IMG/VR virus record: IMGVR_UViG_3300042866_000344
Coordinates: 1 to 39,346 of that record
Length of the DNA: 39,346 bases
Source of the DNA: a virus
Reading direction: 5' to 3' (one strand)
Positions 2,655 to 32,062 of the stretch are shown here, one piece after another. Position numbers and translations under genes: made by a program. The notes below the pieces were generated by a model, which had not been told where the DNA came from, made no database searches, and saw only the letters and a list, made by a program, of their open reading frames with translations. Every line of letters starts with the position of its first letter. Position 1 is the first letter of the stretch.

Positions 2655-3611
2655 TTAAAGGGTGATACCTGCGATGCCGTTGGATGTGGCGGAACCGGCA
2701 CATGATGCCACTGTAGCCGCGCCGCCTGCGCTGACCACGCATCCTGAGTAGGTGTATTTGTTGCGGGTAGTAACACGACCGCAGCTTGTAAATCCTATTG
2801 CAAAAATGCCAACCGTACTGTTCCCAGCCGCCGAACCGCAAATTGATGCGACAGTAGCGGCCCCTCCTGCGCTGACTACACATCCTGAATAGGTGTATTT
2901 ATCGCGGGTGGTAACATAACCACTAGCCGTTTGCCCCAGTGCAAAAATACCAACAGTGCTGTTCCCACCCGCCGAATTATTGTTTGACGCTGCGGTAGCC
3001 GCGCCGCCTGCGCTGACTACATCACCTGAGTAGGTATATTTATTGCGGGTGGCAACACGACCACAGGGCGTAAAGCCCAGCGCAAAAATCCCAACCGTAC
3101 TATTACCGGCTGCGGACCCGCCGCCTGATGCCGTTGTCGCCGCTCCCCCTGCACTGACGACATCTCCTGAATATGTGTATTTATCGCGGGTGGTGACGCG
3201 GACGAAGCAAGGGTTTAGCCCGATTGCAAAGATGCCAACGGTGCTGTTTCCCGCAGCAGAGCCACCGAAGGTCCCCACTGTGGAGGCTGTTCCGGCGCTG
3301 ACTACGCACCCTACGTAGGTGTATTTATTGCGGGTTGTAGAGACGATGCAGGCTGCAATTCCCAACGCAAAGATACCGACCGTGCTGTTGCCATCCGCAG
3401 CGCCTGATCTATTAGCGGCTGTGGCGGCAGTACCGGCGCTGACAGCGTCACCTGAATATGTGTACTTATTACGGGTCGTAGAAGCGCAAGGCGCATTCCC
3501 CAACGCAAATATACCAAACGTGCCGTCCAGCACGAAGTTCGGTGGCCACAGCCCCTGACCGACTGCCTGAAACTGCTGGGAGAGGGACCAGACCCCGCTG
3601 TACGAGGGCAT
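2655..3611 (-). CDS. Six-repeat propeller-like tail protein
   Basis: 318 residues. After a 30-residue N-terminus (MPSYSGVWSLSQQ...) the protein is six repeats of about 47 residues. Each repeat contains GIFALG, a variable loop usually with a Cys, TTRNKYTYSG, a D/C switch, VVSAGGAAT, and then two hypervariable residues before GSAAGNSTV. A last partial strand (SNGIAGITL) could close a ring. The pattern resembles kelch-like beta-propeller blades of phage tail proteins. The repeats differ at many synonymous sites, so the protein pattern is maintained by selection. ATG 3611 overlaps the stop of the homing endonuclease (TGATG), whose 3' end supplies the AAGGAG ribosome site. It is a paralogue of the gene at 4231-5436. 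Confidence 0.85.
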   Translation of the reverse strand: MPSYSGVWSLSQQFQAVGQGLWPPNFVLDGTFGIFALGNAPCASTTRNKYTYSGDAVSAGTAATAANRSGAADGNSTVGIFALGIAACIVSTTRNKYTYVGCVVSAGTASTVGTFGGSAAGNSTVGIFAIGLNPCFVRVTTRDKYTYSGDVVSAGGAATTASGGGSAAGNSTVGIFALGFTPCGRVATRNKYTYSGDVVSAGGAATAASNNNSAGGNSTVGIFALGQTASGYVTTRDKYTYSGCVVSAGGAATVASICGSAAGNSTVGIFAIGFTSCGRVTTRNKYTYSGCVVSAGGAATVASCAGSATSNGIAGITL

Positions 3612-4198
3612 CAGATGTTCTCCTTCAGCATTTTCTTGCGGCGTCCCCAGAACACATAAGCGGCAGCGCTGAGTTTAGCACGCGTCTCATCGGAAATTGG
3701 CTTTTTATTTTTAGCTGCTATGCTCATTTTTTGTATCTCTTCCGGCGTCCGCTTGCGGCCTTTATTAGCAGCGCTAATTTTAGCTTTTGAAGCGTCTGTA
3801 TGCGGTGAGCCCTTTCTGCCCGTAAGCGTAGCAGAAATCTTAACACGCTGCTCTGGTGTCACAATCAACCCGCTGGGGCCGTGACCGCCATCAGTAAGAT
3901 TAACGAGGGCAACACCTGAGCGACGCAAGCACTTGATAAGACCCATTTCCAAATCGAACGCGGTGCTTTCGTCGGAGCAGTCCAGCTTCCCGATTAGAAT
4001 GTTGCGCCTGTCGTATTTCGCAACGACATTCTTGTGGTGCTGGTTCCGCTTATGGAACATGTTCAAGCGCCTGCCATTGCCCTTGCCAATGTAGAACGGC
4101 GTCCCATCAGGCTTGGCGTGAATGTACGCGTAGAACTGCTTGCCGTTCGCATCCGGCAGCACTGAAGGCTTTGCTAGGGAGCCGCTGTACGATGGCAT
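3611..4198 (-). CDS. GIY-YIG homing endonuclease with NUMOD3 repeats
   Basis: 195 residues. A GIY-YIG nuclease core starts near residue 22: FYAYIH, then PFYIGKGNGRR around residues 34-44, with an ALVNLTDGG turn near residue 105. The C-terminal half holds several NUMOD3-type DNA-binding motifs (ISATLTGRKGS, ISAANKGRKRT, KLSAAA). These enzymes cut DNA at a specific site and spread into it. It lies between two paralogous repeat genes and shares the first six residues (MPSYSG) with the gene downstream, so it seems to have inserted at that gene's 5' end while rebuilding its start. GGGAG before the ATG is the ribosome site. Catalytic Arg and Glu positions were not verified. Confidence 0.88.
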   Translation of the reverse strand: MPSYSGSLAKPSVLPDANGKQFYAYIHAKPDGTPFYIGKGNGRRLNMFHKRNQHHKNVVAKYDRRNILIGKLDCSDESTAFDLEMGLIKCLRRSGVALVNLTDGGHGPSGLIVTPEQRVKISATLTGRKGSPHTDASKAKISAANKGRKRTPEEIQKMSIAAKNKKPISDETRAKLSAAAYVFWGRRKKMLKENI

Positions 4199-4230: not shown

Positions 4231-5436
4231 TCATGTCGTGATGCCGATGATGCCGTTGGATGCGGCGGAACCCTCGAAGGAACCTGCGGTAGCCGCACCA
4301 CCAGCGCTGACAACGCAGCCTGAGTAGGTGTACTTATTGCGGGTAGCAACTCTGCCGCATGCAGTGCAGCTTAACGCAAAGATGCCAACGGTGCTGTTGC
4401 CTGCCGCAGAACCATTTTTAGATGCAGCCGTTGCCGCGCCCCCTGCGCTGACGACATCGCCTGAGTAGGTGTATTTGTCGCGGGTGGTTAATCTAGTGCC
4501 GCAACTATTCTGCCCTAACGCAAAAATACCAACCGTGCTATTTCCCGCAGCGGAGCCATAATACGAACCAACTGTTGCCGCTCCCCCCGCACTTACCGCG
4601 CAACCAGAATAAGTGTACTTATTGCGGGTTGTGTAAATGCCGTTGGTGGCGACCCCCAAAGCAAAAATGCCAACGGTGCTGTTGCCTGCCGCAGAGCCTA
4701 CTTCAGACCCCACCGTAGCAGCTCCACCTGCGCTTACAACGCAACCTGAGTAGGTATACTTATTGCGAGTGGTTGACCCTTGAAAAGTACAAACTAACCT
4801 ACCAAGTGCAAAGATGCCTACTGTGCTATTGCCTGCTGCGGAGCCATAAAAAGACGCCACAGTAGCTGCTCCGCCCGCGCTGACTACACAGCCTACGTAG
4901 GTGTATTTATTGCGAGTGGTGACGGGGCACGGTGCAATCCCTAACGCAAATATACCAACGGTGCTGTTACCCGTAGCGGAACCTCGGGATGAAGCCGCTG
5001 TGGCTGCTCCACCCGCGCTGACGGCATCGCCAGAGTAGGTGTATTTGTTGCGGGTGGTGACGCGGCCACAACTGGCGGTGCTACCCAACGCAAAGATACC
5101 AAATGTCCCGTCCGCTGACGGGGTAACGCTATTACTAAACGCGCTAATCGGTGACGGCCCATAGCTGTTCAGTGCAAAGACACCAAAGGTGTACGCGGTG
5201 CCGTTGGTCAGACCGGAGAACGTCAAAGGTGAAGCGGATGCAGTCGCGGCAACATCGCTCGGAGTAGACCGCCCGGTATAGCCGGTGATCGCAGAACCAC
5301 CCACATTGGTCGGCGCGGTGAAGCTCACCGTCGCGGACGCATTACCTTCCGCAGCCGTGCCAATAGTAGGCGCGTTCGGGGCTTGCAGCGGGTTAAACCC
5401 GACGCCGAGAATGCCGCCTTGAAACCGCTTTGACAT
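4231..5436 (-). CDS. Fn3 domain plus six-repeat propeller-like tail protein
   Basis: 401 residues. The N-terminus MSKRFQGGILGVGF is a common phage tail opening. Residues about 20-108 form a fibronectin type III-like domain (PNAPTIGTA ... YTFGVFALNSYG). Six blades of the same type as in the 2655-3611 protein follow (GIFALG-loop-TTRNKYTYSG-[DC]-VVSAGGAAT-S-xx-GSAAG), ending in SNGIIGITT. Variable pairs before GSAAG are SR, FY, EV, YY, KN and FE. Cysteines recur in the loop after GIFALG and at the D/C switch. A likely host-contact or decoration protein of the tail; this is inferred from architecture, not from a matched function. Confidence 0.87.
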   Translation of the reverse strand: MSKRFQGGILGVGFNPLQAPNAPTIGTAAEGNASATVSFTAPTNVGGSAITGYTGRSTPSDVAATASASPLTFSGLTNGTAYTFGVFALNSYGPSPISAFSNSVTPSADGTFGIFALGSTASCGRVTTRNKYTYSGDAVSAGGAATAASSRGSATGNSTVGIFALGIAPCPVTTRNKYTYVGCVVSAGGAATVASFYGSAAGNSTVGIFALGRLVCTFQGSTTRNKYTYSGCVVSAGGAATVGSEVGSAAGNSTVGIFALGVATNGIYTTRNKYTYSGCAVSAGGAATVGSYYGSAAGNSTVGIFALGQNSCGTRLTTRDKYTYSGDVVSAGGAATAASKNGSAAGNSTVGIFALSCTACGRVATRNKYTYSGCVVSAGGAATAGSFEGSAASNGIIGITT

Positions 5437-14325: not shown

Positions 14326-14928
14326 TTAACCCAGTGGCTTGTGATATAGCACATACTCACGTGCCTTGGCTAGTAGCTCTATGCTGTCGTTAAAAAGACC
14401 TAAACCACGATTGCAGTTGGAGCAAAGCAGGGCGCGAATTGCGCCTGTCGCGTGGTCATGATCGATGGCAAGATCCTTGGTTTTGCCAGAAGCTTTGTCA
14501 GGCGAGGTCTCAGGTTGGTGGCAGATGGCGCAGACGCCGCCTTGGGTGTGCAGCATCTCTTGGTAGCGCTGAGCGTCAACGCCAGCGTGCTTCCATTTGC
14601 GCTGCTTGATGTAATGCGCATGGCATAGGTCTTTGGCGTAAAGGTGATTGTCGCAACCATCTATCGTGCAAATGCGCGCAGGCTTTTTGCGGTCTCTGTA
14701 CATCGTATGGCCATACCGCAAGAAGCGCTGGTAGTGCATCTTGCACAGGCCCTTGGCCTTTACGGGATCTGCGCACCCATCTTCGGCGCACTCAGGAAGC
14801 TTGACCCGCTCCCGTGATTTGATGGGCGAGAACTCGGACCCGCGCATCCACTGTGAGTAATGCGTTTGGCAATAACCGCGCGCCTTGTGAGGCCGCGTAC
14901 AACCATCGAACTGGCAAATTGTAGACAT
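14326..14928 (-). CDS. Endonuclease VII-type HNH protein with three zinc knuckles
   Basis: 200 residues. The C-terminal part (about 120-195) is a recombination endonuclease VII-type HNH fold: CAIC (133-136), IDHDHATG (155-162), CSNCNRGLG (169-177), then FNDSIELLAKAREYV. The N-terminal part is three regular knuckles of the form C-x4-C-x9-C-x2-H (C5/C10/C20/H23, C47/C52/C62/H65, C87/C92/C102/H105), probably DNA- or target-binding. Endonuclease VII resolves branched DNA; free-standing homing relatives also exist. It sits directly after a terminator that follows the major capsid gene, with no ordinary ribosome site (AGGGGGG lies in the terminator stem), so it looks like a mobile insertion. Confidence 0.88.
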   Translation of the reverse strand: MSTICQFDGCTRPHKARGYCQTHYSQWMRGSEFSPIKSRERVKLPECAEDGCADPVKAKGLCKMHYQRFLRYGHTMYRDRKKPARICTIDGCDNHLYAKDLCHAHYIKQRKWKHAGVDAQRYQEMLHTQGGVCAICHQPETSPDKASGKTKDLAIDHDHATGAIRALLCSNCNRGLGLFNDSIELLAKAREYVLYHKPLG

Positions 14929-23980: not shown

Positions 23981-24194
23981 CGTGCAGCATCTGCGCATCA
24001 TGCTGCACGAGGTGATCCCAACAAGTCTCAACACAGCGCAGCACATCGGCGCAGCGCAGCGTGACCCCAGCACGAGCAGCGTGCAGCATCGTGGGGTACC
24101 CCTAAAGGGGTAACCCCCACACGCTGCATGACACGCTGCGTCTCGCGCTTGCCTGCAGCATGCAGCAGCAGCATGCAGCATGACCAAATGCTGC
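23981..24194. repeat. GCAGCAT iterons with hairpins; candidate replication origin
   Basis: Seven exact copies of GCAGCAT or its complement: 23984, 24083, 24155, 24168 and 24175 direct, 24000 and 24188 inverted. CGTGCAGCAT (23981-23990) and ATGCTGCACG (24000-24009) form a perfect 10-bp inverted repeat with a 9-nt loop. The cluster lies in the divergent gap (23904-24327) between late and early blocks, next to an AT-rich stretch and a cruciform. This organisation is like an iteron-type origin or a regulatory array; the initiator could be the RepA-like fusion protein at 29640. No gene of more than 40 codons is supported in this gap. Confidence 0.4.
24091..24120. other. Strong cruciform hairpin
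   Basis: GTGGGG TACCCC (24091-24102), loop TAAA, GGGGTA, AC bulge, then CCCCAC (24107-24120). Twelve base pairs with only a 2-nt bulge. The flanks also pair imperfectly (CAGCGTGCAGCATC left, ACGCTGCATGAC right), so the whole unit is a long cruciform. It could be an origin structure or a bidirectional transcription barrier between the divergent blocks. No T-run on either strand. Confidence 0.55.
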
Positions 24195-24195
24195 T

Positions 24196-24313
24196 GCTGG
24201 CTAGTGATTGCTTGCATAGCTAAATGCTGGCTAGTGATTACTTGCATATTTATTTTCACGGGGGGCTTGCAAGCGTTTACTTGATATGCAATTATACTGA
24301 TATCAAGCAAGCA
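24196..24313 (+). promoter_or_regulatory. Tandem promoter/operator array for the early block
   Basis: Two 23-bp direct repeats (24196-24218 and 24226-24248, one mismatch) contain CTAGTGATT[GA]CTTGCATA. A third, diverged copy follows at 24267-24286 (TTGCAAGCGTTTACTTGATA). Each can be read as a -35 (TGGCTA, TGGCTA, TTGCAA) and 17 bp to an AT-rich -10 (TAAATG, TATTTT, AATTAT). CAAGCAAGCA follows at 24304-24313, near the expected start of transcription. A perfect TATAAT on the opposite strand (24291-24296 region) may serve the divergent late block. Activity is inferred. Confidence 0.55.
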
Positions 24314-24327
24314 AAGGAGACACTGAA

Positions 24328-24552: not shown

Positions 24553-24617
24553 CACCGCGCCGCCTGACCGCGCTGCTCCGCCAGCTCGCCGATCAACTGG
24601 AGAAGACCAATGGCTAA
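24549..24617 (+). CDS. Possible 22-residue mini-gene
   Basis: ATGA overlap with the zinc-ribbon stop, then 22 codons (MTPRRLTALLRQLADQLEKTNG) ending within the next gene's start (ATGGCTAA). Its 3' end carries GGAGAAG, the ribosome site for the next gene. The sequence makes an amphipathic basic helix. It may be a coupling leader or a small peptide; below normal gene-calling size. Confidence 0.35.
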   Translation: MTPRRLTALLRQLADQLEKTNG

Positions 24618-27355: not shown

Positions 27356-27403
27356 TTGCAAGTGTTTGCTTGCACGTCTACAGGTTACCTCATCAAGCAA
27401 GCA
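27356..27403 (+). promoter_or_regulatory. Promoter/operator, second early unit
   Basis: TTGCAA (27356-27361), 17 bp, TACAGG (27379-27384). The -35 lies inside a palindrome TGCAAG-N6-CTTGCA (27357-27374). CAAGCAAGCA follows at 27394-27403, 38 bp from the first T. The same three parts at the same spacing recur at 24267 and 31750. Expected start near 27392. Confidence 0.6.
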
Positions 27404-27418
27404 CAAGAGGACACCGAC

Positions 27419-27673
27419 ATGATTGACTGGACCAAAGACGAACGCACCGCAGCACTGATGGCAGAAGCTGTAAGGCACTGCCTGGCTACCGACGAGTTCT
27501 CGCTCGAGCACGAGGAGCGGCTCGAGCTTATCCGCGACGAGTATCTTACCGACCGCTGGAACGACTATCGTAGCGAAGACACCGACGGCTTCGAAGATTG
27601 GCACGGCCAGCTAACGGTCGAGGAAGCCTTCCACGCTGCGTTCGACGCCGACAACGCTGTGCGCGTTGGGTGA
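27419..27673 (+). CDS. Small acidic early protein
   Basis: 84 residues from ATG 27419 (MIDWTKDERTAA), with AGAGG 7 nt upstream; the longer frame to 27356 overlaps the promoter and is rejected. Strongly acidic (DEFSLEHEERLELIRDEYLTDRWNDYRSEDTDGFEDW). Acidic small proteins in phage early regions often mimic DNA or bind host enzymes; that is a general observation, not evidence here. Confidence 0.68.
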   Translation: MIDWTKDERTAALMAEAVRHCLATDEFSLEHEERLELIRDEYLTDRWNDYRSEDTDGFEDWHGQLTVEEAFHAAFDADNAVRVG

Positions 27674-27678
27674 TCGAC

Positions 27679-27843
27679 ATGCACAGCATCCCTCTTATCA
27701 CCACACCCGTCCGCCAACTGGACGACAAGCTCTGGGCCATCTTCAGCAAGAAGGGCCCGCTAACCGCAGAGGAACAGGCTTACCTCGATCGCATCGAGGC
27801 TGAGTACGAAGAGACTATCTTTGACGAAGGGGAGTACAACTGA
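27679..27843 (+). CDS. Small early protein
   Basis: 54 residues from ATG 27679 (MHSIPLITTPVRQLDDKLWAIF), just after the stop of the acidic gene. A weak GGGTG lies upstream. Acidic C-terminus (LDRIEAEYEETIFDEGEYN). The frame extends to 27598 but this would overlap the upstream gene. TGATG overlap with the next gene. Confidence 0.6.
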   Translation: MHSIPLITTPVRQLDDKLWAIFSKKGPLTAEEQAYLDRIEAEYEETIFDEGEYN

Positions 27844-28394
27844 TGAGCATATTTAATCCATGGGCTGAGGTCCGCAAACTAAAGGCCCAGCTCGAAGCAG
27901 GCTATGAGACATACCGCGTCGAAGAGACGCAGCAGCAGGCCGAGTGGGCCAAGAAGGCCGTCCTGCTGGAAGAGCTGGAGCGCGACAACGCCGCTCTGCG
28001 CCGCGAGCTCAAACAAGCCGTCATCCGAGGTTCCAACAACAACTTTGAGCTCGAACGCAAGCTGGGCGAGATGACTGCGCAGCGTAACAAGGCGAACAAC
28101 GCCATCAAGCGCAAAGATCGCGTCATTCAGCGCCGCGAGGCCGACATCAAGGAGCTTGAGCTCGACGTGCGTGAGATAGAGCGCAAGATGTGCGCCGCCG
28201 TTCAGGAAATCGATCAGCTTAAGTCCATCAAGGTTAATTTCATAAACCAAAGTTTCGACATGGTCGCGCTCAAGCAGCAGGTCGAAGCTCTGACTGCACT
28301 GAAGGAAGAGAACCGCAAGCTCGAGGCTGACCTCGCCCAGGCTGTTGACCCGCGCGACGCTAAGACGGGCCGCTTTACCAAGAAGGCGAAGTGA
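27843..28394 (+). CDS. Long coiled-coil protein
   Basis: 183 residues, nearly all predicted coiled coil from residue 10 to 165 (LEELERDNAALRRELKQAVI; IKRKDRVIQRREADIKELELDVREIERKM; LKEENRKLEADLAQ), then PRDAKTGRFTKKAK. The ending GRFTKK is common in phage early coiled-coil proteins. Structural or host-interaction role; no family assigned. Confidence 0.75.
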   Translation: MSIFNPWAEVRKLKAQLEAGYETYRVEETQQQAEWAKKAVLLEELERDNAALRRELKQAVIRGSNNNFELERKLGEMTAQRNKANNAIKRKDRVIQRREADIKELELDVREIERKMCAAVQEIDQLKSIKVNFINQSFDMVALKQQVEALTALKEENRKLEADLAQAVDPRDAKTGRFTKKAK

Positions 28395-28690
28395 TCATGC
28401 TCTACGATTTCGACATCGAGTACGAGCTGTTCGAGGAGGGGCCGATCGACGTGATCGAGTATTACGTCACGGCGCACGACACCGACACCGGCCGCATCCT
28501 GCGCCACAACATTGGCTTCCGCACGCACGACCTGTTCATCAATCCCGTAACGGGCGACGAGCACATCTACCCGCGTGACCACAGCGACCCCCAGCGCGAG
28601 GTCGAGCTGCTCTTGTGCTCAGTGCGCAAGAAGGGCGCGATCAATCCGGTCTGGTGGTCGGAGCTCGTGCCCGCAGCGGTCTACCCGTGA
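28391..28690 (+). CDS. Hypothetical early protein
   Basis: 99 residues, start GTG 28391 overlapping the previous stop (an ATG two codons later is possible). Sequence MIMLYDFDIEYELFEEGP, YYVTAHDTDTGRIL and PVWWSELVPAAVYP suggests a small beta-alpha domain. No family recognised. Ends in a GTGA overlap. Confidence 0.65.
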   Translation: MIMLYDFDIEYELFEEGPIDVIEYYVTAHDTDTGRILRHNIGFRTHDLFINPVTGDEHIYPRDHSDPQREVELLLCSVRKKGAINPVWWSELVPAAVYP

Positions 28691-28968
28691 CAGCGAACGA
28701 CAACACGACGCCGGAAGACGATGACGATTATCTGTCCGAGGAAGAGTTGAGCGAGATGCTTGGCTCAGCCTCACACTTTGGCACCATTATCGAGCGGCGC
28801 CTGGTAGTCACTTGGCTGAACAAGAACGCCGCCGACTTCTTATTTGAGCCGGGGCTCGACCCCAAACTTCAAGAATACGGCACGACAGTGCTCGAGATGG
28901 TCGCCGACGCGATCAGAGAACAAGAGCACTGGACAGGTGCCCATAACACCAGGGAGACAATACAATGA
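28687..28968 (+). CDS. Hypothetical early protein, acidic N-terminus
   Basis: 93 residues from GTG 28687 (TANDNTTPEDDDDYLSEEELSEM), chosen because it overlaps the previous stop as its neighbours do. Acidic first 30 residues, then a helical body (LVVTWLNKNAADFLFEPGL; TTVLEMVADAIREQEHW). No family recognised. ATGA overlap with the next gene. Confidence 0.62.
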   Translation: MTANDNTTPEDDDDYLSEEELSEMLGSASHFGTIIERRLVVTWLNKNAADFLFEPGLDPKLQEYGTTVLEMVADAIREQEHWTGAHNTRETIQ

Positions 28969-29171
28969 CACGAAGCACCAACGAGATCATCAGGGAAGCA
29001 GCCCGCGTGCTGGCGAAGCAGGATAAGCTGCGCAAAGAGCAGCGGGTACTTGAGACGCGCGTGCGCGAGCTGTGCCGCGAGTTCGAGACGGCTGAACGCT
29101 GCTGGGCCCTCGCGCCTCACATGCTGCGCCAAGAAGTCGAGGCGCGCACCAACCGGAAGATCGCGGCATGA
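28965..29171 (+). CDS. Small helical early protein
   Basis: 68 residues, basic and helical (IIREAARVLAKQDKLRKEQRVLETRVRELCREFETAERC). Coiled-coil pattern. AGGGAGAC 6 nt before ATG 28965. Coupled on both sides. Confidence 0.65.
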   Translation: MTRSTNEIIREAARVLAKQDKLRKEQRVLETRVRELCREFETAERCWALAPHMLRQEVEARTNRKIAA

Positions 29172-29296
29172 GCAACGACACACCACTATTCTTTGTGGTC
29201 ATGGGGCTGCTGGCTCTTACCGCATACCTCATGGTGACAGCGCCGCCGCGCACCGCAGAGGAACGCAAAGAGATGGAAGAGGACTGGTGGGAATGA
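29168..29296 (+). CDS. 42-residue membrane protein
   Basis: A small gene from ATG 29168 to TGA 29296 with ATGA overlap at its start. The protein begins MSNDTPLFFVVMGLLALTAY, has one transmembrane helix (residues about 6-26), then a charged tail (TAEERKEMEEDWWE). N-in/N-out not decided. A host-membrane-acting phage peptide is plausible; it is not an obvious holin. Confidence 0.6.
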   Translation: MSNDTPLFFVVMGLLALTAYLMVTAPPRTAEERKEMEEDWWE

Positions 29297-29324
29297 TGGC
29301 TAAATGCGTCGCCGACCGTTTATG

Positions 29325-29367
29325 ACTTGTATCAAGCAATCACTTTAATGTAGGCTACTCGGCCTAT
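29325..29367 (+). promoter_or_regulatory. Inverted operator copy before the Cro-like gene
   Basis: The minus strand of 29330-29345 reads AAGTGATTGCTTGATA, the shared operator core in reverse orientation, in the 86-bp gap before the HTH gene. On the plus strand TTGTAT (29327-29332), 18 bp and TAGGCT (29351-29356) can serve as promoter, so the operator would lie in its spacer. CTTG-TAT-CAAG is a short palindrome in it. This fits autoregulation by the downstream HTH; inference. Confidence 0.5.
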
Positions 29368-29382
29368 CCAAAGGAGCACATA

Positions 29383-29625
29383 GTGGAACAATCAGGACTA
29401 GCGCGCGCCGTTAAGTTCGCAGGAAGCGTTTCGGCTTTCTCGAAAGCGGTCGGCGTGACCCACCAGGCGGTATACCAGTGGCTGCAACGCGGCTGGCTGA
29501 CGCCGAAACGCGCAGAGCAAGTGAGCGAACTGTACGGGGTGCCTGCGGCCGAGCTGCTCGACCCAGAGATCACCAAGCTCGTGCGCGTCACCGATGTGGC
29601 CGATGTAGCTCAAGACCTCCTCTAA
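29383..29625 (+). CDS. Cro/YdaS-like HTH regulator
   Basis: 80 residues from GTG 29383, AAAGGAG 7 nt upstream. Residues 14-60 (GSVSAFSKAVGVTHQAVYQWLQRGWLTPKRAEQVSELYGVPAAELL) match the YdaS/Cro-type helix-turn-helix, with VTHQAVYQWL as recognition helix and the GVPAxEL ending. Small size fits Cro-like repressors. The operator copy upstream makes it the best candidate for the regulator of the shared element. Confidence 0.85.
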   Translation: MEQSGLARAVKFAGSVSAFSKAVGVTHQAVYQWLQRGWLTPKRAEQVSELYGVPAAELLDPEITKLVRVTDVADVAQDLL

Positions 29626-29639
29626 TTGGAGGGCCACAC

Positions 29640-31742
29640 ATGCCGGGTGAAAGGGACACATCCATGCCTAACGTCGCGACTATTGCGCCGCAACACCGCT
29701 CTATTGAGGTGCCGGATGAGCTGCAAGCTCTGCCTGGCTGGCTTGTGTGGCGGTATGAGCAGCACCCAGGCGAGCCTAAACCTCGTAAGGTGCCATACTA
29801 TGTAGACGGCGGCCGGCGCTATGGCGTCCAGGGCTCGCCCCAAGATCGCGGCAAGCTGACCACGTTTGCAATGGCGCGCGACGAGGCCATGAAGCGCGGC
29901 TTCGACGGCATCGGCCTGGCGCTCATGCCAGACTGGGGCGTCACTGCCTTGGACTTCGACAAGTGCGTCGGCCCGAACGGCGCGATGCCGCATGAGATCG
30001 TCGAGATCATCGGCGACACCTACAGCGAGTACTCGCCCAGCGGCGAGGGCGTGCGCGCCTTTGTGCGTGGCAATCTGGGCAACAACAAGAGCTATGCGGA
30101 GGGCGACCGCTACGGCTTCGAGACGTTCAACACCAACGGCTTCGTCACCATCACAGGGCGGCACACGCCGTACTGCGAGATCATGGGACTTGAGAACACG
30201 ATTGCGCCGGCCTCTGATCATGTGATCGAGCTGGCAGGGCGCCGCTTCGTGCGCACATCGTCTGCCGTTGCGGACGACCCCGACGACTTCATGATCGGCC
30301 ACGAGCCTAAGCTGAACCTGACGGTCGACCGCATGCAAGAGCTGCTCGGCGCGTTAGACGCTGACATGGGCCGCGACGACTGGATCAGGGTCGGCATGGC
30401 GCTACACCATGAGTGCGAGGGCGACGACACTGGCTTTGAGCTCTGGGACGAGTGGTCGGCCGAGGGCTCGACCTATCCTGGCACCGAGGGGCTGCGCGGG
30501 CAGTGGGAGAGCTTCGACAGGCGCGTCGGCAACGGCCACAGGCAGGTCACGATGGCGACTGTCCTAAAGATGGTGAAGCAGGCCGGAGGATCCACAACCG
30601 TAAACCCTCCTAAGGCGGCGAGCGCCCAAGAGGTGTCGGCCAAGGTCGATGCGCTCGTCGCAAATCTGGTGCCCTCTGAGGGCGTGTATTCGCCTGTGGG
30701 CTACACTGGTAGGTTCCCTGTCCTGTCTGCCGATGAGATGAGCGAGCAGAAGACGGCTAAGTGGCTCATCAAGGGCGTCGTGCCTGCCGCCGACATCGTC
30801 ACGATCTTCGGCGCATCAGGCTCGGGCAAGAGCTTCGTCGTGCTTGAGATGGCGGCCTGCATCGCATTGGGCGTGCCGTGGCGCGGACACAAGGCCGAGA
30901 AGGGCCGCGTCGTGATCATCGCGGCGGAAGGCTCAGGCAGTTACGGCAAGCGTATCAAGGCGCTGGCGCAGTATCTGGGCATCTCGCCCAAGGATCTGGA
31001 CATTGGCGTGATCGTTGTGCCGCCCAACCTCATGGAGGAGGGCGACGTGACCGATCTCGCTGCGTCGATCAAGGCGGTCGGCGGCGTGTCGCTGATCATT
31101 ATCGACACCTTTGCGCAGGTGACACCCGGCGCGAACGAGAACGGCGCCGAGGACATGGGCCTCGCCCTGTCCAACGTGCGGGTGCTGCGGACCACGACCG
31201 GCGCAACGGTTGAGCTTGTGCATCACGCAGGCAAGGACGCCCACCGAGGCTCACGCGGCTGGTCAGGCATCCGTGCCGCCGTCGACGCCGAGCTGGAAGT
31301 GACGCGCGATGAGGACAGCGGCGCACGGCAGATCCGCACCACCAAGCAGAAGGACGGCGAGGACGGCCTGAAGTGGGGCTTCAAACTGGAGACTATCCTG
31401 CTGGGCCTCGACGACGACGGTGACGAGATCACGAGCTGCGTTGCGGTTGAGGCTGATCTGGCCAAGGGCGGCGCGGAGGACATGCCGCGCAAGGGCGTCA
31501 AGAAGCTGGGCCGTGTGGCCACGCACATCCTCGAGACGATCGAGACGCAGATTGATCCGTTCGTGGCTGACATGGCGATCAATGACTTCATACAGCTCTG
31601 CGCGGACGGCATGCCGGCGCCTGAGATTGGTAAGCGTGACATCCGGCGCCAGGACGTGCAGCGCTCGCTCAAGAGCCTGACGACTGGGGCCGACGCGCCT
31701 ATCTTGATCGAGCATGGCAGAATTATTTTCATGACAGGCTAG
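29640..31742 (+). CDS. PrimPol-PriCT-RepA-like primase/helicase fusion
   Basis: About 700 residues from ATG 29640 (GGAGG 7 nt upstream; ATG 29664 is the alternative). Residues about 30-160: a PrimPol (NrS-1-type) domain with ALDFDKC carrying D105-x-D107 and the SEYSPSGEGVRAFVRG sheet. Residues about 231-310: PriCT-like helical domain (MGRDDWIRVGMALHHE ... TMATVL). Residues about 375-620: RepA/AAA_25-type ATPase with Walker A GASGSGKS (391-398), Walker B LIIIDTF (485) and HHAGKDAHRGSRG. Expected job: primer synthesis and helicase loading at the origin. It heads the replication genes. Confidence 0.88.
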   Translation: MPGERDTSMPNVATIAPQHRSIEVPDELQALPGWLVWRYEQHPGEPKPRKVPYYVDGGRRYGVQGSPQDRGKLTTFAMARDEAMKRGFDGIGLALMPDWGVTALDFDKCVGPNGAMPHEIVEIIGDTYSEYSPSGEGVRAFVRGNLGNNKSYAEGDRYGFETFNTNGFVTITGRHTPYCEIMGLENTIAPASDHVIELAGRRFVRTSSAVADDPDDFMIGHEPKLNLTVDRMQELLGALDADMGRDDWIRVGMALHHECEGDDTGFELWDEWSAEGSTYPGTEGLRGQWESFDRRVGNGHRQVTMATVLKMVKQAGGSTTVNPPKAASAQEVSAKVDALVANLVPSEGVYSPVGYTGRFPVLSADEMSEQKTAKWLIKGVVPAADIVTIFGASGSGKSFVVLEMAACIALGVPWRGHKAEKGRVVIIAAEGSGSYGKRIKALAQYLGISPKDLDIGVIVVPPNLMEEGDVTDLAASIKAVGGVSLIIIDTFAQVTPGANENGAEDMGLALSNVRVLRTTTGATVELVHHAGKDAHRGSRGWSGIRAAVDAELEVTRDEDSGARQIRTTKQKDGEDGLKWGFKLETILLGLDDDGDEITSCVAVEADLAKGGAEDMPRKGVKKLGRVATHILETIETQIDPFVADMAINDFIQLCADGMPAPEIGKRDIRRQDVQRSLKSLTTGADAPILIEHGRIIFMTG

Positions 31743-31749
31743 ACAGGGG

Positions 31750-31793
31750 TTGCAAGTGATTGCTTGCATCGCTATGGGTTACATTCCAAGCAA
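31750..31793 (+). promoter_or_regulatory. Promoter/operator of the replication unit
   Basis: TTGCAA (31750-31755), 17 bp, TATGGG (31773-31778). Palindrome TGCAAG-N6-CTTGCA at 31751-31768. CCAAGCAA at 31786-31793, 37 bp from the first T to the first C of CAAGCAA. It is the third copy of the bipartite element, in the 71-bp gap after the primase/helicase stop. Confidence 0.6.
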
Positions 31794-31813: not shown

Positions 31814-32062
31814 ATGGAAAAAGACCGTAACTACTATCGCCAGTGCGACAACGCCACGATACTCGTGTTAGCCAAGGAGGGCGGCGACGAGCTGTCTATG
31901 GTGCTGGCCGAGCGTCTGGCTGACGCACTCTTCGACCTCGAGCACGCAGACCGCAACGAGATCGCCGACCTGAAGGCCGAGGTCAACGACCTTAAGGAAG
32001 AGATCGCCGAGGCGAACCAAACCATCCGCTACCTTGAAAGTGAACTGGAGAACGTAAAGTGA
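31814..32062 (+). CDS. Small coiled-coil early protein
   Basis: 82 residues from ATG 31814 (MEKDRNYYRQCDNAT), with AAAGGG upstream; the longer frame begins in the promoter and is rejected. The C-terminal half is a coiled coil (IADLKAEVNDLKEEIAEANQTIRYLESELE). First gene of the replication unit after the promoter; GTGA overlap with the next gene. Confidence 0.68.
   Translation: MEKDRNYYRQCDNATILVLAKEGGDELSMVLAERLADALFDLEHADRNEIADLKAEVNDLKEEIAEANQTIRYLESELENVK

Follow-up and report, generated by a model that had tools for sequence, protein, structure and literature searches.

We describe a set of palindromic operator sites laid over the early promoters of a phage, together with a small protein that likely binds them. 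The DNA analysed, hereafter the window, is the whole virus record IMGVR_UViG_3300042866_000344 of 39,346 bases. The sites recur at defined positions in the window, are conserved in relatives and occur together with a protein encoded at 29383 that has a predicted Cro fold. We consider it probable that these components form a Cro circuit without CI, in which the 29383 protein would switch several early operons off, a reading of binding, repression and timing that rests on sequence and a structural model. A preliminary description of this DNA had proposed an early regulon controlled by a phage regulator, and that proposal is well supported.

Palindromes over early promoters

A three-part signal stands at three places on the + strand. 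Inspection of the window places TTGCAA at 24267, 27356 and 31750, each separated by 17 bp from a −10-like hexamer (AATTAT, 24290–24295; TACAGG, 27379–27384; TATGGG, 31773–31778, GCTATGGG, to be compared with Caulobacter GCTANAWC), and CAAGCAA begins 37, 38 and 37 bp, respectively, after the first T. The preliminary description was exact in all of these positions and spacings. For TTGCAAG-N30/31-CAAGCAA there are three matches on the + strand, none on the − strand and none in 400 dinucleotide shuffles, and the 14-base core AGTGATTRCTTGCA, also present three times in the window, is absent from all 400; CAAGCAA by itself is enriched just about twofold. A complete TGCAAG-N6-CTTGCA palindrome is found, as described before, at 27356–27374 (TTGCAAGTGTTTGCTTGCA) and 31750–31768 (TTGCAAGTGATTGCTTGCA), in both cases with its left half as the −35, and the copy at 24267 is half-broken. 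The promoter at 27356, which is kept in L197, the closest relative besides near-identical contigs, is followed by CAAGCAA at 27394–27400 ahead of a gene starting at 27419. The operator at 31750 lies 8 bp past the stop codon of the primase-helicase gene, a position that is the same in most relatives, and CAAGCAA at 31787–31793 precedes a gene starting at 31814.

Where only three sites had been recognized, we count five operator copies, the overlooked ones being those of TGGCTAGTGATTRCTTGCA at 24198 and 24228. With spacings of 30 and 39 bp, these two and the 24267 copy form a tandem trio in the divergent intergenic region between leftward structural genes and rightward early genes. O1 (24198–24216, TGGCTAGTGATTGCTTGCA) and O2 (24228–24246, TGGCTAGTGATTACTTGCA), both on the + strand, have degenerate left halves and share a 24-bp direct repeat. 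The 24328 operon has a promoter whose −35 is the left half of O3 (24267–24285, TTGCAAGCGTTTACTTGAT), and the leader CAAGCAAGCAA (24304–24314) precedes the ribosome-binding site of the 24328 gene. In L197 each of the three window promoters is kept together with its TGCAAG-N6-CTTGCA operator, the palindrome at the position equivalent to O3 is perfect, and one more operator lies upstream within the divergent region. Also conserved between the divergent late and early blocks is the hairpin-forming GGGGTACCCCTAAAGGGGTAACCCC (24094–24120 in the window, 4686–4713 in L197).

Relatives were found through the primase-helicase gene (PriCT_2 and AAA_25; 29640–31742, + strand), which served as the syntenic anchor. 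Viral contigs were scanned twice and bacterial genomes once, which yielded well over 100 loci; about 80 of these count as full or near-full clade relatives. Nearly all clade relatives carry a promoter of the same design directly past the primase stop codon, GGGG-TTGCAAT-N5-ATTGCA-...-CTATATG-...-TCAGCAAC-GGAG-ATG, and the same module precedes other early genes too, often in three to five copies per genome. As had been predicted for related phages, the module stands at gene starts with nearly fixed spacing. A viral-contig scan for TTGCAAG-N3-TT-N-CTTGCA was, among the matches listed, informative only for L115 (the same as L003).

The spacing between half-sites peaks at a single value in each lineage. 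In the main clade the TGCAA/TTGCA pair (one mismatch allowed) is found at 114 unique places with a gap of 7, compared with roughly 4–38 at other gaps. The same pair peaks at gap 8 in Caulobacter phage RW (9 vs 0–2), AAAGC/GCTTT peaks at gap 4 in a third clade (13 vs 0–3), and GGGCC/GGCCC shows a weak peak at gap 3 in L018 (6 vs 0–4). No such peak is seen in members of the wider group without the proposed regulator. Of the 93 unique TTGCAA-N7-TTGCA sites in the main clade, 87 are followed within 110 bp by a ribosome-binding site with a start codon, and the leader is present at 77, whereas other gaps, used as a control, give 0–18 sites, 0–7 before genes and 0–2 with the leader. Searched over their whole length, 15 of 16 regulator-bearing records contain exact operators of class A and 0 of 4 records without the regulator do, and the reversed control pattern had no matches. 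RW, with a genome of 62 kb, contains 12 sites, mostly in the early region, against one control match. A scan of GTDB genomes for prophage relatives returned few regulator-bearing loci and no firm evidence of a host or prophage, since all of these loci sit on contigs of metagenome-assembled genomes.

By sequence, the promoter itself is host-type and the palindrome is superimposed on it. When 94 class A modules were aligned on the operator, the −10 profile read G C (C/T) A N A and position 24 was A in 93%, so that TTGCAA...GC(C/T)ANA matches the consensus of Caulobacter RpoD, an alphaproteobacterial sigma-70 (TTGaCgS and GCtANAWC; PMC8144410). Clades whose operator lacks TTGCAA mostly have an exact TTGAC as −35; it is on these two grounds that we regard the promoter as host-type. 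A generic sigma-70 scan of the divergent region gave no match, the consensus used being unsuited to alphaproteobacterial promoters. Measured from the first T of the −35, the operator is centred at +9.5 or +10 in the window clade and class A and at +15.5 to +18 in the TTGAC clades; in RW, by inspection, the right half-site doubles as the −35. The operator thus shifts over the core promoter yet always covers the −35 or the −10, which argues for repression. Relatives bear out that the operator overlaps the promoter, that it repeats at early transcription units and that a phage regulator is its most likely ligand. The earlier view of operator, −35 and early transcript as one unit is not supported, as the palindrome changes in sequence and position across lineages while promoter and leader stay.

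The third part of the signal is separable as well. This leader, CAAGCAA in the window and CAGCAAC in relatives, had been read as belonging to the same unit, but it also precedes promoterless genes. TCAGCAAC has 278 unique contexts; a ribosome-binding site with a start codon follows in 188 of these, compared with 30 of 279 for the reverse complement, and 42 contexts have a start codon and no −35 at the right distance. Many promoterless contexts come, within an operon, after a stop codon or after a GGGGGCTTCGGCCCCC-type hairpin; some are chance matches inside genes. Because it precedes genes without a promoter, CAAGCAA/CAGCAAC is probably a gene-start leader and not part of the operator or a transcription-start element, and its role probably lies in translation. 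A third operator half or start-site element was considered and rejected, as the palindrome changes independently and CAAGCAA is found between cistrons without a promoter. A leader hairpin, TTGCTTG...CAAGCAA, was rejected too: in the window it arises from letters that the two elements share, and it is not kept in relatives, where CAGCAAC stands beside ATTGCA. RW has no CAGCAAC leader. In L007, L016, L019, L022, L039, L042 and L048, a GGGGGCTTCGGCCCCC-type hairpin frequently precedes TCAGCAAC within operons, which might mean that the leader marks processed or re-initiated transcripts.

A Cro-family protein and its proposed half-site alleles

The proposed regulator gene (29383–29625, + strand) encodes an 80-residue helix-turn-helix (HTH) protein of the Cro/YdaS family, with the recognition helix at about residues 27–36. 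An ortholog lies upstream of the primase in nearly every clade relative with enough upstream sequence, mostly at a distance of about 250 bp and in some genomes at 1.4–2.2 kb; L050, L054, L056 and L057, with 10 kb of upstream sequence, have neither the protein nor the sites. Compared with PDB sequences, the family profile matches Xfaso 1 Cro (E = 3.9e-10), N15 Cro (4e-4) and, weakly, P22 Cro. In Pfam, the window protein scores above the cut-off for YdaS_toxin and slightly below it for P22_Cro, and at E ≤ 0.001 all 34 family members match YdaS_toxin and 31 of 34 match P22_Cro. The predicted structure has five helices (predicted local distance difference test, pLDDT, 88), with helix 27–36 at the recognition position. 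A Foldseek fold search of the PDB ranked Xfaso 1 Cro first (template modelling score 0.80 by target, root-mean-square deviation 1.0–1.5), and the N15 Cro-operator complex was also a best match. By its sequence and modelled fold the protein belongs to the Cro family, and it is likely the regulator that binds these sites.

Recognition helix and half-site vary together among the phages. GCAA-type half-sites go with the helix (T/S)HQ(A/V)(V/I)(Y/C), AAGC-type half-sites with T(V/Q)QA(V/L)(C/Q/G) and GGGCC half-sites with SQQAVH. Helix residue 2 agrees with the operator class in 45 of 45 genomes, H with the GCAA type and V or Q with the AAGC or GGGCC type, the classes having been assigned partly by hand and class E (TGCAAC...GTTTA) being the least well defined. 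Such a joint change of recognition helix and half-site is known for Cro (Hall et al. 2005, as cited in PMC4997575).

Some regulators may control their own genes. By inspection, TGCAA-N8-TTGCA stands in the regulator's own upstream region in L202, and AAGC-N4-GCTT overlies a −35-like word upstream of the regulator in L220, L228 and L230. In much of class A the regulator gene overlaps or abuts the preceding gene, and transcription from an upstream operator-bearing promoter is therefore probable. The only operator-like site upstream of the regulator in the window is a weak one at 29331–29349 (+ strand; ATCAAGCAATCACTTTAAT; score 11.9), which may mediate autoregulation and is kept in L197. In L062, about 2.1–2.2 kb before the primase, the regulator gene seems to be split in two frames by a frameshift or sequencing error, and the operators persist.

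Proposed repression and its alternatives

In the mechanism that we favour, host sigma-70 RNA polymerase would transcribe the early operons from TTGCAA (or TTGAC)-N17-TANNNN promoters, each with a 17–18 bp palindrome overlapping its −35 and spacer. The 29383 protein, as a putative dimeric repressor of the Cro type, would occupy the palindromes once the early genes are expressed and cover the −35 and −10, and several early operons, the replication operon at 31750 among them, would be shut off together. In several relatives it may also repress its own operon, and the three tandem operators at 24198–24285, where the late and early blocks diverge, could allow graded or cooperative control.

Several observations weigh against this mechanism. 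O1 and O2 are degenerate, and the score of the weak 29331 site is within the shuffle range in the window alone. The Foldseek E-values exceed 0.01, as expected for so small a protein. The primase tree contains just two independent changes of helix and operator, which are not significant alone because a sign test has no power with so few; an apparent third change was an artefact of a regular expression that missed L006. Finally, the operator of RW covers the −35 and the DNA upstream of it, and some proteins activate from such a position.

The same protein, bound at the same sites, might indeed chiefly activate the early and middle promoters, or act on them as a dual regulator, although we consider this unlikely. 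TTGCAA deviates from the consensus TTGAC, and such promoters could need help, as the placement of the RW palindrome might also suggest. However, the palindrome of the window clade and class A takes up the −35 and the spacer, a placement at which no activators other than those of the distortion type work, and this spacer already measures 17 bp. Other lineages combine a perfect TTGAC with an operator over the spacer and −10, and operator position differs by lineage, which repression tolerates and activation usually does not.

The palindrome might instead be the site of a host regulator or only a by-product of constraint on the −35, but we regard this as very improbable. TTGCAA is itself −35-like and self-complementary and the promoters are of host type, yet a promoter has no need of the second half-site, whose fixed spacing is kept across many genes. 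Moreover, half-site sequence and spacing vary among phages of one family, and relatives without the regulator are also without the sites. That the regulator is one of two other early-region HTH proteins, at 24610 and 25819, listed with 29383 as candidates in the preliminary description, is the least credible reading despite the HTH_7 match of 24610, since neither has a homologue in the site-bearing relatives beyond near-identical contigs and only 29383 is conserved with the sites. The mechanism that remains favoured is repression by the 29383 protein.

Some promoter modules of the same phages contain a second operator-like word, CCCTCAAA(C), after the −35 (L042:7178, L046:1821, L048:3564 and 7616, L207:4309, L208:6022, L211:2194, L215:1626 and L229:6659). 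This suggests a second regulon with another regulator.

Life style and relation to known systems

The regulator gene sits inside the early operon beside the primase, and no divergent S24-type CI gene was found in 25 records, an arrangement that differs from a lambdoid CI/Cro switch. Searches in which the controls worked, over records some of which are fragments, found neither a tyrosine integrase (33 records) nor a serine recombinase (resolvase), ParA or Peptidase_S24 repressor (25 records), a CI without S24 being outside the search. The records searched thus hold no integrase, resolvase or partition gene of the kind that marks temperate phages. In the 2024 paper on RW and its sister phages, the words repressor, lytic, temperate and integrase are all absent. 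A virulent life style is likely, though unproved because several records are fragments.

Cro with its operators is an already known kind of system. The lambdoid Cro proteins (Xfaso 1, N15 and P22, and YdaS of E. coli prophages) are likewise small HTH proteins of the same fold and sequence family, with palindromic operators over early promoters and with helix and half-site changing together. Unlike them, the present system has no S24 CI partner and no integrase in the records searched, it has operators at several early operons that lie apart rather than in a single switch region, and its gene adjoins the primase. The stoperators of cluster A mycobacteriophages resemble it in the many copies of a repressor site over the early genome and in specificities that diverge among related phages (PMC6550527 and PMC9283540). 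However, cluster A phages are temperate, and their sites are asymmetric and exert part of their effect on elongation, whereas the sites described here are symmetric, lie inside promoters before genes and come with no lysogeny genes found, which sets them apart from stoperators.

The Riverwalk cluster Caulobacter phages RW, RLK, KcrB and GB2A are cultured relatives that share the gene order regulator, primase, DUF2800, DUF2815 and DNA polymerase and have TGCAAC-N6-STTGCA sites before early genes. They differ in the missing CAGCAAC leader and in an operator 13 bp further upstream, because there the right half-site is the −35. The regulator is annotated as a hypothetical protein (GP050) in RW and as a transcriptional repressor in GB2A, and the regulon is unannotated. 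As far as the searched literature shows, where absence is no proof, a stand-alone early regulon of several operons with divergent operator alleles and no lysogeny genes is new.

Two further features of the window were noted. Two open reading frames (ORFs) on the − strand (2655–3611 and 4231–5436) are built from repeats about 40 residues long (GNSTVGIFALG...TTRNKYTYSG), some positions of which vary, and are separated by a GIY-YIG-like ORF (3611–4198, − strand). Amid the structural genes, an ORF at 14326–14928 (− strand) resembles a homing endonuclease of the HNH or endonuclease VII type.

A tentative reading, which we think possible but rather doubtful, is that the operator specificity of this Cro-type repressor has split into at least six alleles in a phage family with no lysogeny genes found. 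This would be heteroimmunity without lysogeny, in which an infected cell would silence the early promoters of an incoming phage of the same allele and thereby drive divergence. The matched series of helices and half-sites (TGCAAT, TGCAAG, TGCAAC, GCAAAG, TAAAGC, GTAAGC and GGGCC) offers natural material for studying how Cro-type proteins read DNA. A large, mostly uncultured group of phages gains a proposed regulator together with its operators, and RW on the laboratory strain Caulobacter vibrioides CB15 offers a cultured system for testing them. A Cro-type repressor in phages without lysogeny genes also raises a testable question, namely why such a phage would keep a repressor of its own early genes.

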